Source of the DNA: Acidovorax sp. NCPPB 3576 | GTDB taxonomy: Bacteria; Pseudomonadota; Gammaproteobacteria; Burkholderiales; Burkholderiaceae_C | DNA: 64,000 bases | Direction: 5' to 3' | NCBI RefSeq assembly: GCF_028473605.1 | Contig: NZ_CP097267.1 | Span: 1,058,501 to 1,122,500 of the forward strand | In this document: positions 48,841 to 52,953 of the stretch, piece by piece | Position numbering within the stretch: the first letter of the stretch is position 1 | Layout: the number at the start of each line of letters is the position of its first letter | The notes under the pieces: model-generated | Database searches by the model: none | What the model was told of the DNA's origin: nothing | Seen by the model: only the letters and a program-made list of their open reading frames with translations | Program-made: the position numbers and the translations under genes

Positions 48841-49671
48841 CTACACCGACCAGGTGCGCGGCCGCTGCGCCGCCATGCCCCAGCACTGCGCGCGCCAGGC
48901 CGCCCACACGGCCTGCAGCAGGCCCATGGCGGGCTCCACCACGGGCGCGAGCACCCGCACCACCACCACGTTCGGATGGGGGCTGGTGGCGCCGGCCGTG
49001 GCGGCCAGCGGGTGCGCCTCGATGGCGGCGCGGGCGGCATCCAGCGCGCCTTCGCGCCGCTCGCGCGGCAGGGCTTCGCCCGCGATGAAGAAGATCGACG
49101 CCATGCAGCGGTGCCCCGCCAGGCCCAGCGCGCCGTCGAGCAGCAGCCGGTCGGCCGCGTCGATGCGGCCGCGCTCCAGCCACACGCCCGGCACCTCGAT
49201 GTGCTGGGTGAATCGGCCCGATTCGAACGGCTGCCCGGCGTGGGGCAGCCCGAGCGCGGTGACGTCCCAGCCCAGGCATTCGGCGCCCGGGGCCACCTCC
49301 AGCGTGAGCCGGTTCTCGGCCTGGCAGGCGTTGTAGCAAAGGGCTTCGAGCGGCAGCCATTCGAGCCGCGCGCCGGGCGCCAGCACGGCGTGCGCGCGCT
49401 GCAAGGCGGGAGCACCGGTGGATCGGTAAAAGCGCGTGGCGCCGGGGGTGGTGACCAGGCCGTGCGCGCCGGCCGCGACGGTGGTGCGGATGTCCAGCGT
49501 GTCGCCCCCCACCAGCCCGCCGGGCGGGTGCACCAGCACGTTGTGGCACACCGCATCGCCTTCGGGGTACAGGCTTTGCAGGATGCGCAGCGGGCCGCCG
49601 TGTTCGAAGCGTGCCACCGTGCGCTCGGCCTCGCGGCGGTAGTCCAGTTGCAGGTGGGCGTGCCAGGTCAT
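48841..49671 (-). CDS. ureD: UreD, urease accessory protein
   Basis: 276-residue cytoplasmic scaffold that with UreF and UreG loads nickel into urease. UreD pieces are LQLDYRREAERTVARFEHGGPLRI (in parts: LDYRREAERT and HGGPLRILQSLYPEG), HPPGGLVGGDTL, TTPGATRFYRS and LEWLPLEALCYN. Full length with all conserved blocks, so probably functional. The urease structural genes are not in the window; the next gene downstream is the Tlde1-like effector. It lies behind the nucleobase deaminase on the same strand. Confidence 0.93.
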   Translation of the reverse strand: MTWHAHLQLDYRREAERTVARFEHGGPLRILQSLYPEGDAVCHNVLVHPPGGLVGGDTLDIRTTVAAGAHGLVTTPGATRFYRSTGAPALQRAHAVLAPGARLEWLPLEALCYNACQAENRLTLEVAPGAECLGWDVTALGLPHAGQPFESGRFTQHIEVPGVWLERGRIDAADRLLLDGALGLAGHRCMASIFFIAGEALPRERREGALDAARAAIEAHPLAATAGATSPHPNVVVVRVLAPVVEPAMGLLQAVWAAWRAQCWGMAAQRPRTWSV

Positions 49672-49749: not shown

Positions 49750-50286
49750 TCAGGCTTTCCACGCGCCCTGGTGCGAGGCCGATGCCTCGTCGATCAGCGC
49801 GGGGCCGATGCATTCGATGGCATGGGCCGAGGCGGCGAACACGTCGCGGCACGACAGCTCGGCGTCGCGCTGGTCCAGCCGCTCGCCGCGAAAGGCGCGC
49901 AGCCGCACGGCGTCGATGCCGTACACCACGCGCCCGATGTTGGCCCAGAAGATCGCGCCCGCGCACATCACGCAGGGCTCGCCGGACGAGTACAGCGTGG
50001 CCTGCGCGAAGGCCTCGCGCGGATGGTGCGGGCTGGCCAGGCGCACGGCCGAGGTCTCGGCATGCGCGGTGCAGTCGCCCGTTTCGCCGTTGGCGTTCCA
50101 GGCCTCGGCCAGGATGCGATCGTCCGCACCCACGATGACGGCGCCGAACGGGCGGTTGCCGCGCGTGCGGGCCTGGCCGGCGAGCGCGATGGCGCGGCGC
50201 AGGTACAGGCCGTCGCGCGGGGCGAGGGGGACTTCTGCGGGCAGCAAGGCCGTGGCGGGCTGGGGTGAAGGGGCGAGGGTTTTCAT
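49750..50286 (-). CDS. Nucleobase deaminase (guanine-deaminase-like, CDA fold)
   Basis: 178-residue zinc deaminase of the cytidine deaminase fold. Zinc site: HAE in CTAHAETSAV and PCxxC in SGEPCVMCAGAI. The N-terminal GNRPFGAVIV and the late RLRAFRGERLDQ fit GuaD-type guanine deaminases better than tRNA deaminase TadA. The start is ATG at 50286 (MKTLAPSP). It follows the NMT1-type binding protein gene by 16 bp on the same strand, behind a predicted xanthine riboswitch, which supports a purine role (guanine to xanthine). Confidence 0.82.
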   Translation of the reverse strand: MKTLAPSPQPATALLPAEVPLAPRDGLYLRRAIALAGQARTRGNRPFGAVIVGADDRILAEAWNANGETGDCTAHAETSAVRLASPHHPREAFAQATLYSSGEPCVMCAGAIFWANIGRVVYGIDAVRLRAFRGERLDQRDAELSCRDVFAASAHAIECIGPALIDEASASHQGAWKA

Positions 50287-50302
50287 CGAAAGGCCTCCGC
50301 TT

Positions 50303-51328
50303 TCAGGCCGGCACCTTGCGCTCACCCGCAGCGGGCAGGAACGCCGGGTTGAACACCCGTTCGGCCGCCGGCTTGCGGGCCAGGCCGAACGTGGTGGCGA
50401 TTTCGTCGATCTGCCGGGCCAGCACTTCGGGGTTCACGCTGCCCAGGCCGATGGCCTGCGTTTCGGCGGTGGCGAGGTATTGCCGCGTGATGGCCCAGCG
50501 GGCGCGCTCCATGTCCATGTTCAGGATGGGTTCGCGCGCCTTGATGGCGGCCAGCGCGGCGTCGGGATTGGCCAACGTTTCGCGCAGCGCCCGGTTCGTG
50601 GCGCGCAGGAAGGCCCGCGCCACTTCGGGGCGCTCCTGCAGCAGCCGGCCGGCCAGGATGGCGTTGCCATAGAGGTTCAGCCCGGTCTTGCCGTATTCGA
50701 GCACGGCCAGGTCCTGCGGCGGCATGCGGGCGAACAGGGATACCGCCGAGTCGTGGAAGTAGGTGGCCGCGTCCACGTCGCCGCGCACCATCACGTTGTC
50801 GCGCGCGCTGAAGTCGGTGGTCACCCACTGGAACAGGTCGGGGCTGGTGTTGAGCTGGCGCGCCACCATGGGCCAGCTGCGGCGCGTGGATTCCACGGCG
50901 GCGGCGGCCACCCGCTTGCCCTTGAGCGACTGGAAGTCGGTGGTCACGCCGCGGTCCTTGCGGCCGATGATGACGAAGGGCGCGCGGTTGTAGTACTGGT
51001 AGATGGCCTGCACGGGCGCGTCGGCGTTCTGCGCGTGGAACTCGGCCAGCGCGCTGATGTCGCCCAGCCCCAGGTCGTAGGCCCCGCTGGCCACGCGCGT
51101 GATCGAGGCCACAGAGCCCGAGCCCACGTCGATGCCCACGTCCAGCCCCTCGTCCTTGTAGTAGCCGTTGGCGGCGGCCAGGAAGAACGGCGCGGTCTGG
51201 CTGGTCACGCGGAAGTCGAGCGTGAACTTGAGCGGAGTGGCCTTGCTCTGGGCGTGCACGGCGGGCGCGGCCAGTGTGGCGGACAGGAGGGTGGTGGCGG
51301 AGGTGGCGAGGAATCGGCGGCGTTGCAT
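50303..51328 (-). CDS. NMT1/THI5-type ABC substrate-binding protein
   Basis: 341 residues with an N-terminal signal containing RRRFLATS, close to a Tat motif, and cleavage near AVHAQS. The mature protein has the NMT1 fold: FTLDFRVTSQTAPFFLAAANGYYKDEGLDV (in parts: APFFLAAANGYYKDEGL) and GSGSVASITRVASGAYDLG. Such receptors bind pyrimidines, purines or related rings. No permease or ATPase gene is adjacent, so it must use a transporter encoded elsewhere. The start at 51328 is about 70 bp downstream of the predicted riboswitch. Confidence 0.88.
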   Translation of the reverse strand: MQRRRFLATSATTLLSATLAAPAVHAQSKATPLKFTLDFRVTSQTAPFFLAAANGYYKDEGLDVGIDVGSGSVASITRVASGAYDLGLGDISALAEFHAQNADAPVQAIYQYYNRAPFVIIGRKDRGVTTDFQSLKGKRVAAAAVESTRRSWPMVARQLNTSPDLFQWVTTDFSARDNVMVRGDVDAATYFHDSAVSLFARMPPQDLAVLEYGKTGLNLYGNAILAGRLLQERPEVARAFLRATNRALRETLANPDAALAAIKAREPILNMDMERARWAITRQYLATAETQAIGLGSVNPEVLARQIDEIATTFGLARKPAAERVFNPAFLPAAGERKVPA

Positions 51329-51394
51329 GGCGGTGGCTCCAGGTTCGGACGTGACAACCGGCCACGGCGCATCTGCGCCGTGCATCGGTGCGAA

Positions 51395-51456
51395 CTGAGC
51401 AATTTCCGGGCAACGGCGCCGTGGGGGAACGGACCGGGCTGAACGCTTCTACTCGG
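51395..51456 (-). ncRNA. Predicted NMT1-motif (xanthine) riboswitch, copy A
   Basis: Read on the minus strand: GAGTAGAAGCGTTCAGC, a variable stem region, then GCCCGGAAATTGCTC. These two conserved strands match what I remember of the NMT1-motif consensus, an RNA class that binds xanthine and uric acid and lies upstream of NMT1-domain transporter genes. GAG pairs with CTC to close the element, and a CCGT/ACGG hairpin lies in the variable arm. It precedes the NMT1-type receptor gene at 51328, exactly the expected context. Whether ligand turns expression on or off is not clear from the sequence. Confidence 0.8.
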
Positions 51457-51692
51457 GGGCGGCGTTGCATGAAGCGTGCCTGCACGACGCAGTTCGGCCC
51501 CATCAGGGTGGGCGGGCGGGGCGTGGCCGATGCCTGTCGCCGCTGGTGCATTTTCGGCAGGGCCGGCACGCGGGTGGTGCATTGCCGTCCCCGTTGCGGT
51601 GAGGCGGTGCGCGGTGGCACGTGCAGCCGCTGCGCCATGGCCTGCCCACCCGCTGCGCACGGATTGGCCTGCGATTTGCTTGCATGCCCCGC

Positions 51693-51756
51693 AAGAGTAG
51701 AAGCGTTCAGCCCGATGGCCCGCCCCGTGCAGGCCCATCGGCGGGTCATTGCTCTT
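51693..51756 (+). ncRNA. Predicted NMT1-motif (xanthine) riboswitch, copy B
   Basis: Plus strand: the identical 20-base GAGTAGAAGCGTTCAGCCCG (51695-51714), an arm with CCGATGG pairing CCATCGG, then GGGTCATTGCTC. The closing stem CAAGAG/CTCTTG is perfect. The 3' conserved strand differs from copy A (GGGTCATTGC against CCGGAAATTGC), so ligand affinity may differ. It faces away from copy A and leads to the 2OG-Fe(II) dioxygenase gene 150 bp downstream. Confidence 0.7.
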
Positions 51757-51906
51757 GAAGCCGGTGGTGGCCGCCGGCGCGCCGTTGCCGTCCTGGCGAA
51801 TGCGTGCCGCCGGGCGCCGCCTTTGTCCCCTTCAAGAGCCCCGTGGCGCGTACCTGTCTGGCCGTGTCCGCCATGGGCCTTGGTTCATCCGACGAGGAAA
51901 CCCGCC

Positions 51907-52953
51907 ATGCAGCAGAGTACCGCCACCCACCCCGCCACCCACCCCGCCATCTCCCATGCCGACCCCGTAGACGCCACCGCCGATGTGCGCGGCGAACTGG
52001 AAAAGGAAGCCCGCATGGGCGGCATGGGCGCCGAGACCAGCGCCCGTGAAATCCGCTGCATCGACCTGTCCGACTTCGAACACCGCAAGGCGGAGATTGC
52101 CGATCAACTGTGGAGCGCCTCGGTCGAGATCGGGTTTTTCCAGGTCACCGGCCACGGCATTGCCGTGGAAGACATCCGCCACGCGTTCGCGCGCGCCCAG
52201 GCGTTCTTCGACCTGCCGCGCGAGACCAAGGCGCAGTGGCCGCTGGCGCGCAACGCGGGCTGGGAGCACAAGGCGCAGGTGCGCCCGTCCACGCGCACGC
52301 CGGACCAGAAGGAGTCCTACCAGGTCACCCGGCCGCGCATGGCGGGCCTGTGGCCCAGCGAGGCCGAGCTGCCGGGCTTTCAGGAGGCCACCTTGCGCTT
52401 CGAGGCGCAGTGCTGGCACGTGGGCATGCAGCTGCTGTCGTGCTTCGCGCATCGGCTGGGGTTCGATCCGGACTTCTTCACCCGCGCGCACGACCCGTCG
52501 AGCGCGGCCTACCAGAGCACCCTGCGCATGCTCCACTACTTCGCCGTGGACCCGGCGCTCAAGGACGAGCTGGGCCTGTGGCGCGCGGGGGCGCACACGG
52601 ATTTCGATTGCCTCACGCTGCTGTTCCAGCGCCCGGGCCAGGGCGGGCTGCAGGTGCTGCCCGGCAAGGAGATGGAGAGCCGCCAGTGGACCAGCGTGGA
52701 GCCGGCCGAAGGCGTCATCACCTGCAACATCGGCGACATGCTGACGCGCTGGAGCGACGACCAGTTGCCCAGCAACTTCCACCGCGTGCGCAATCCGCTG
52801 CCGCACGAGTACCAGGGCGCGCGCTACAGCCTGGCGTTCTTCTGCCAGGCCAACGAGGATGCCGTGGTGGAAGGGCCGGGCCGCAAGTACCCGCCGATCA
52901 CCGCAGGCGACTACCTGCGCCAGCGCATCACGGCGAATTTCGCCAAGTACTGA
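51907..52953 (+). CDS. 2OG-Fe(II) dioxygenase, isopenicillin-N-synthase-like
   Basis: 348 residues. An N-terminal DIOX_N region (about 45-165) begins IRCIDLSDF and has GFFQVTGHGI; the double-stranded beta-helix core follows. Iron ligands are His and Asp in GAHTDFDCLTLL and the distal His in SNFHRVRNP; the 2-oxoglutarate-binding Arg-x-Ser lies in GARYSLAFF. These enzymes hydroxylate or demethylate small molecules. Placed behind predicted riboswitch copy B and opposite an NMT1 receptor and deaminase, a purine or xanthine-derived substrate is plausible but unproven. Start at 51907. Confidence 0.87.
   Translation: MQQSTATHPATHPAISHADPVDATADVRGELEKEARMGGMGAETSAREIRCIDLSDFEHRKAEIADQLWSASVEIGFFQVTGHGIAVEDIRHAFARAQAFFDLPRETKAQWPLARNAGWEHKAQVRPSTRTPDQKESYQVTRPRMAGLWPSEAELPGFQEATLRFEAQCWHVGMQLLSCFAHRLGFDPDFFTRAHDPSSAAYQSTLRMLHYFAVDPALKDELGLWRAGAHTDFDCLTLLFQRPGQGGLQVLPGKEMESRQWTSVEPAEGVITCNIGDMLTRWSDDQLPSNFHRVRNPLPHEYQGARYSLAFFCQANEDAVVEGPGRKYPPITAGDYLRQRITANFAKY

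Follow-up and report, generated by a model that had tools for sequence, protein, structure and literature searches.

Divergent xanthine (NMT1) riboswitch aptamers between purine-type genes in Acidovorax, and the conservation of their opposed layout

The locus and its genes

The window, by which is meant the whole stretch of 64,000 nucleotides of Acidovorax sp. NCPPB 3576 that was analysed, contains an intergenic region from which purine-type genes run in both directions. On one side lies a gene for an NMT1-type receptor, followed by a deaminase and possibly by a third gene; on the other lies a 2-oxoglutarate (2OG)/Fe(II) dioxygenase. Between them, two riboswitch aptamers face outward. The features are as follows.

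48841..49671, minus strand: UreD urease accessory protein, possible third gene of the operon (PF01774, E 7.6e-47)
49750..50325, minus strand: deaminase of the cytidine/guanine/TadA type (PF00383, E 1.2e-22; TadA and guanine deaminase among its PDB relatives)
50303..51328, minus strand: NMT1/THI5-like substrate-binding protein (PF09084, E 1.5e-32)
51392..51459, minus strand: xanthine (NMT1) riboswitch aptamer toward the NMT1-receptor operon (RF03054, full model 1-56, contact nucleotides intact)
51435..51454, minus strand: left arm of a perfect 20-bp inverted repeat, the 5' core of the minus aptamer (from sequence and core frequencies)
51460..51689, no strand: inter-aptamer spacer of 230 bp, the expected site of both promoters (from the aptamer limits)
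51690..51759, plus strand: xanthine (NMT1) riboswitch aptamer toward the 2OG dioxygenase (RF03054, full model 1-56, contact nucleotides intact)
51695..51714, plus strand: right arm of the inverted repeat, the 5' core of the plus aptamer (from sequence and core frequencies)
51907..52953, plus strand: 2-oxoglutarate/Fe(II) dioxygenase (PF03171 and PF14226, DIOX_N/2OG-FeII oxygenase)

The original prediction, made from the letters of the sequence, had one copy of the motif facing an NMT1-type receptor gene and the other a 2OG-Fe(II) dioxygenase. Both assignments hold, in family and in orientation. The gene behind the receptor had been called guanine-deaminase-like: the cytidine/guanine/TadA fold is confirmed by PF00383, and its substrate may be guanine, another base or tRNA. 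The NMT1-type gene starts at 51328 on the minus strand and is preceded by the Shine-Dalgarno (SD) sequence GGAG. For the dioxygenase, a profile of 19 relatives has its best PDB match in thymine dioxygenase (5c3p, E 3e-46), so that the nearest solved structure is that of a nucleobase enzyme. As for UreD, 13 of the 14 pair-bearing genomes of the genus, that of the window included, have a match to it behind the deaminase.

Two aptamers and their shared core

A search of the 64 kb with the Rfam 15 covariance model RF03054 gives a match on each strand, with 55.8 bits (E 9.9e-10) at 51690-51759 on the plus strand and 43.8 bits (E 2.1e-6) at 51459-51392 on the minus strand. Both exceed the gathering threshold of 36 bits, which bears out the proposed NMT1-motif identity, and the limits set by the model extend a few bases past the span first described. 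In the whole 5.4-Mb genome just these two matches were reported, on the scoring of 150 out of 564 first-look candidates. A purine-type gene follows each aptamer in the correct orientation, as expected of RF03054. A sigma-70-like promoter site was looked for in 51300-51950, around the pair, and none was found; separate promoters for the two directions would be expected in the spacer.

The arms of the 20-bp inverted repeat described in the original prediction are indeed perfect reverse complements, and the variable stretch from each arm to ATTGCTC, predicted at 31-33 bases, measures 31 and 33. The first 17 bases of the repeat are GAGTAGAAGCGTTCAGC, the core of RF03054, so three bases alone are left unexplained by it; among the pairs compared, this 17-mer occurs in 52 of 54 NMT1-side and in 27 of 54 opposite-side aptamers. 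The inverted repeat is the 5' core that both aptamers share, and no independent oddity. Terminal repeats of a transposon, already discounted in the original prediction, were rejected: the arms are aptamer cores with just 240 bp between them.

With the nucleotides numbered after the crystal structure paper (PMC8266621), the ligand-core positions A6, G7, A8, A9, G10, C11, G35, A39, U40 and U41 are intact in both copies. Helix P2b aligns in both, the minus copy having one pair marked as non-standard. The minus copy also has the same core, GAGUAGAAGCGUUCAGC ... CCCGGAAAUUGCUC, as the crystallized aptamer of Ideonella sp. B508-1 (PMC8266621). The plus copy differs from that construct in P2a, where the crystal has two A-U pairs and the window has U37 and C38 opposite U13 and U14 (PMC8266621); the two mismatches, U13/C38 and U14/U37, leave it without two of the three P2a pairs.

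Distribution of the divergent layout

How common is such an arrangement? RF03054 was searched for in five overlapping genome draws, and matches were found in 14 of 17 genomes at the level of the genus, 75 of 399 for the family, 17 of 399 for the order, 4 of 369 for the class and 17 of 398 for the phylum, the draws of more than 40 genomes having been run with stricter filters that lose weak matches. In total there are 102 aptamer-bearing genomes with 170 matches, a few of which fall below the RF03054 cut-off. Across these 170 elements, the ligand-contact nucleotides are intact in 166 and the inner five P1 pairs are present in 169.

A divergent pair, 59 to 305 bp apart, is found in 56 of the 102 genomes, and close tandem or convergent pairs in none of them; nine other neighbouring pairs on the same contig (seven tandem, two convergent) are separated by 2.5-4.6 kb. 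All 14 aptamer-bearing genomes of the genus have two matches, always divergent, and three divergent pairs lie outside the order, elsewhere in the class (G1466, G1493 and G1363). The other 46 genomes have no nearby partner, some of these matches being close to contig ends and some partners possibly lost to the strict filters.

A motif search of named genomes gives the same picture. Among the nearest 80 dioxygenase loci, of at least 593 matched stretches, 52 have a pair within 600 bp, and reversed control sequence, 1.25 Mb of it, gave no match to the same motif. Within these 80, the pair is present at 5/5 loci of Paracidovorax, 6/7 of Acidovorax, 3/3 of Delftia, 4/4 of Comamonas, 3/3 of Pigmentiphaga, 3/3 of Curvibacter, 2/2 of Azoarcus, 12/27 of Acinetobacter, 6/7 of metagenome-assembled genomes and 8/8 of others. 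It is found at none of the 11 loci of Enterobacterales (Rahnella, Serratia, Buttiauxella, Rouxiella, Pantoea, Raoultella), which have instead a single aptamer about 2.5 kb upstream. The divergent pair is thus the usual layout, and the commonest close arrangement, in this bacterial family, and it is found again in Acinetobacter, Azoarcus, Pigmentiphaga and further genera.

The partners are as regular as the layout. An NMT1-type protein stands on exactly one side in 54 of the 56 divergent pairs, and opposite it are a 2OG dioxygenase (45 pairs), a Rieske oxygenase (8) or, once, an amidohydrolase (G1363, locus L138). The amidohydrolase was identified by Pfam, as was the NMT1-type gene that accompanies the dioxygenase of pair G1466 (L132); pair G036 joins a dioxygenase to a deaminase. 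Pfam was run on ten unclassified ORFs, namely seven pair-side Rieske proteins, one single Rieske protein, this NMT1-type protein and the amidohydrolase. Every Rieske ORF so tested is Rieske plus VanA_C, and the remaining Rieske labels are based on a shared N-terminus. The Rieske enzyme replaces the 2OG dioxygenase at L093, L087, L085, L088, L092, L102, L103 and L105, of which seven were assigned by Pfam and L092 by its N-terminus. The slot opposite the receptor is therefore occupied by two unrelated families of oxygenases.

With so many pairs at hand, the likeness of the two arms can be put in context. Partner arms of one genome agree in 17.88 of 20 bases and arms across genera in 17.00 (26 genus representatives among 54 pairs; none of 5000 permutations was as high), which gene conversion between the inverted copies, or a shared base composition, might explain. 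The same excess speaks for a repeat that serves mainly as an operator in the DNA, bound by a dimeric regulator, with a secondary role for the RNA. Such an operator is hard to reconcile with arm spacings that range from 59 to 305 bp, with conservation of the entire aptamer beyond the 20 bp, and with the genomes in which the aptamer has no close partner, and it is rated very improbable indeed.

The P2a mismatches of the plus copy also recur. In 62 of 73 NMT1-side aptamers the pairs U13-A38 and U14-A37 are present. The combination U13/C38 with U14/U37 occurs in 26 of 58 dioxygenase-side elements, from nine genera including that of the window, and in none of the 73 NMT1-side or 25 Rieske-side elements. 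Related forms are rare: A13/C38 with U14/U37 is seen in one Rieske-side and one deaminase-side element, and U14/U37 together with a G13-C38 pair in four dioxygenase-side and two NMT1-side elements. In the crystal, N7 of A38 is an outer-sphere ligand of a metal ion (PMC8266621); a C at this position may for that reason alter ligand affinity, and aptamers with the P2a variant may differ in affinity from their partners. Could one arm instead be functional and the other a decayed copy? The lower score of the minus aptamer (43.8 against 55.8 bits) and the P2a mismatches of the plus aptamer would fit such decay, but both copies score above the cut-off, both are kept in 14 of the 17 genus genomes, and a variant common to so many dioxygenase-side elements in nine genera looks like a maintained form. 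Decay is accordingly regarded as quite unlikely.

Predicted leader pairing with the P1 3' strand

The 3' strand of P1, with the tail behind it, may pass the state of the aptamer on to the gene. On all three sides (dioxygenase, NMT1 and Rieske), the longest Watson-Crick helix that this segment can form with its own leader exceeds that in shuffled leaders. The excess is 1.95 bp on the dioxygenase side (49 leaders; 24 of 27 genera positive, p 5.5e-6), 0.84 bp on the NMT1 side (70 leaders; 30 of 35 genera, p 1e-4) and 1.05 bp on the Rieske side (25 leaders; 14 of 20 genera, p 0.006), for shuffles that preserve base composition only and with genera counted as independent. In the window, the segments concerned are the following.

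51336..51346, minus strand: GAAC-CUG-GAGC, which contains the SD (GGAG) for the NMT1-type gene and can pair alternatively with the P1 3' strand (MFE fold)
51392..51400, minus strand: P1 3' strand and tail, GCUC-A-GUUC, paired to the SD region (MFE fold)
51751..51760, plus strand: P1 3' strand and tail GCTCTTGAAG, 5' half of an alternative hairpin (perfect complement, MFE fold)
51830..51839, plus strand: CTTCAAGAGC, 3' half of the alternative hairpin (perfect complement, MFE fold)

In the plus leader, 51751-51760 and 51830-51839 form a perfect 10-bp helix that none of 60 shuffled leaders matches. The helix is present in the MFE fold (z -2.7; 3 of 200 shuffles fold as well), and a long GC-rich alternative hairpin of this sort sets the window apart from the RF03054 class as published (PMC7373994). 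From 28 leaders picked for CTTCA[AG]G, 23 including that of the window were aligned, five shorter or more diverged ones being omitted. The invariance of the outer helix is partly a product of this selection; the inner hairpin, to which that does not apply, covaries, with seven pairs in which both sides are changed in at least one sequence. The minus leader is less distinctive: its longest contiguous helix is of 4 bp, equalled by 48% of shuffles, and its whole fold has no unusual stability (z -1.4). The leaders are GC-rich, and folds predicted there are uncertain.

Contiguous helices that the P1 3' strand can form with the SD, with G-U pairs allowed, exceed shuffles at the genus level as well (p 0.014 dioxygenase, 0.024 Rieske, 0.007 NMT1), and reach 8-11 bp in several short oxygenase leaders. 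When tails were swapped between relatives and compared leader by leader, own tails fitted better over the SD region (p 0.029 NMT1, 0.018 dioxygenase) and over the whole leader (p 0.00056 and 0.00013), and worse than swapped ones just upstream of the dioxygenase SD (p 0.0012). Counted by tail class, the values are 0.03 (NMT1) and 0.066 (dioxygenase) for the SD region, 0.034 and 0.010 for the whole leader, and 0.32 and 0.70 upstream of the SD. These swaps are suggestive only.

Some leaders are of interest in their own right. In L111 and L167 (P. konjaci), the dioxygenase leader lacks about 70 bp of the length that it has in the sister species, and the CTTCAAGGA element is directly the SD. An NMT1-side leader, L114 of G087, has between aptamer and gene an insertion of about 160 bp with inverted ends, missing in the near relatives G269 and G390, that looks like a small mobile element. 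In Acinetobacter, a stem-like stretch followed by 5-7 T stands just behind the dioxygenase-side aptamer and, by eye, resembles a terminator (L179-L182, L184, L185, L192, L194, L201, L204, L210 and L216), in contrast to the near-absence of terminators reported for the class (PMC7373994). An upstream ORF starting behind CTTCAAGAG in the long dioxygenase leaders was considered and rejected: the start codon is frequent, but the ORF is unsupported because its frame and length vary among close relatives.

The locus thus very probably holds two divergent xanthine riboswitches, each heading its own mRNA, in which locking of P1 alters ribosome access. One copy would head the NMT1-receptor/deaminase mRNA and the other the mRNA of the 2OG dioxygenase. 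Binding of xanthine (or urate) would lock helix P1, and the locked helix would withdraw its 3' strand (GCUC) and part of the tail from a competing helix in the downstream leader; with that helix lost, access of the ribosome to the gene would change. Ligand binding, separate promoters and translational control are inferred here.

On or off?

In which direction would these switches work? The class binds xanthine with a KD of about 3.7 uM and urate with one of about 25 uM, and it was concluded to be an OFF switch that acts on translation, from a reporter and one mutant; terminators were described as almost absent from it (Yu & Breaker 2020, PMC7373994). The simplest extension to the window is that both arms are OFF, xanthine lowering importer, deaminase and oxygenase together as feedback on xanthine production. 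The published Hydrogenophaga intermedia reporter agrees with this, since in both rich and minimal medium a binding-dead mutant gave more expression than the wild type, but as described it covers one element and one mutant, without titration of ligand in the cell (PMC7373994).

Two-state folds were computed for leaders of up to 75 nt, and exposure of the SD was compared with P1 forced and P1 forbidden. The set comprised non-redundant leaders with a recognisable SD (16 of 58 dioxygenase, 20 of 25 Rieske and 24 of 73 NMT1 leaders), with start codons set by the author's own script. Over four energy sets, 11-13 of the 16 short dioxygenase leaders are ON-like and none is OFF-like, 10-12 of the 20 Rieske leaders are ON-like and 1-5 OFF-like, and 4-8 of the 24 NMT1 leaders are ON-like and 6-10 OFF-like. 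On the dioxygenase side, the excess over shuffled leaders is seen with every one of the four sets (p 0.013 to 0.027). The Rieske excess has p 0.011 with Turner 2004 and 0.045 with Turner 1999, against 0.225 with Andronescu and 0.19 with Langdon parameters; on the NMT1 side no directional excess over own shuffles was found in any set (p 0.19 to 0.89). With leaders of all lengths, the mean change in SD exposure is 0.005 for the NMT1 side (15 down and 16 up of 54) and 0.071 for the dioxygenase side (2 down and 12 up of 47, some starts being mis-set).

For a common OFF polarity, the evidence from these folds is the NMT1 side with default energies and the SD alone, where 10 of 24 short leaders are OFF-like and 4 ON-like. 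This tendency is gone with other energy sets and reverses when exposure is taken over -15..+3 (11 ON, 3 OFF of 24), and both oxygenase sides lean the other way. Two OFF arms are nevertheless a serious contender that falls just short of being favoured. Opposite polarities, a push-pull in which one ligand switches on the oxygenase while shutting off the importer/deaminase operon, would suit the difference in SD-exposure change between oxygenase and NMT1 leaders (genus-level p 2.7e-4) and the contrast within genomes (11 of 12), both with default energies. That contrast drops to 7 of 12 over -15..+3, however, the NMT1 side taken alone has no direction against its own shuffles, and there too the P1 3' strand has excess complementarity to the SD. 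Push-pull control is therefore considered unlikely.

Direct pairing of a P1 3' strand with the SD is an ON riboswitch design, and the adenine (add-type) riboswitch is a translational ON switch. The short-leader relatives resemble the latter in that the P1 3' strand is directly complementary to the SD; aptamer and ligand are different, and ON control in the xanthine class is a prediction. According to this model, in the ligand-free state the P1 3' strand and its UUGAA tail (UGCUCUUGAA) would pair with the SD (UUCAGGAGCA); xanthine would lock P1 and release the SD, and the purine would induce its own oxidation. If P2a weakens the dioxygenase-side aptamer, one ligand might act at two thresholds over one intergenic region. 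For oxygenase arms whose leaders are short, ON is what the folds predict, at odds with the OFF polarity published for one member of the class. That oxygenase-side xanthine riboswitches are ON, with dioxygenase aptamers perhaps tuned by a weak P2a, is proposed tentatively, as possible rather than probable.

The ON prediction is not extended to the long dioxygenase leader of the window. There, the SD has an exposure of 0.28 in both modelled states, and 67 nt separate the end of the 3' half of the alternative hairpin from the start codon, with the SD outside the helix. For the NMT1 leader of the window the evidence from modelling is mixed: the computed change in SD exposure is -0.18 (OFF-like), yet the ligand-free fold already covers the SD.

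Relation to published work and outlook

The window agrees with the RF03054 class in covariance model, core, gene types (NMT1-like, pcbC-type dioxygenase, tadA-type deaminase) and upstream position (PMC7373994). Nor is the opposed pair a new kind of object, since neighbouring motifs that point in opposite directions, among genes of the same types (NMT1, pcbC, tadA), have been published for one species, Hydrogenophaga intermedia S1 (Fig. 5A legend, PMC7373994). By the text of that paper (PMC7373994), the H. intermedia locus has two NMT1 genes, whereas NMT1, deaminase and UreD genes lie behind the minus copy in the window. In the literature on xanthine/NMT1, hpxE and opposed riboswitches, covered incompletely and mostly at the level of abstracts, no survey of the divergent layout was found. 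What is new here is that the opposed layout, previously noted in one species, is widespread and conserved.

The window pair is thus a further example of an arrangement once noted in print. Both aptamers match the model, both face purine-type genes and the pair is conserved, so that one ligand would probably be able to control both directions. Taken with an oxygenase slot filled from two unrelated families, conservation of the pair suggests a functional unit that is fixed: uptake, deamination and oxidation under one ligand. The discoverers of the class were puzzled that genes consuming oxidised purines were not found under this riboswitch (PMC7373994). If the oxygenase arm is ON, that puzzle would be answered, and xanthine or urate would themselves be suggested as substrates of the associated oxygenases.
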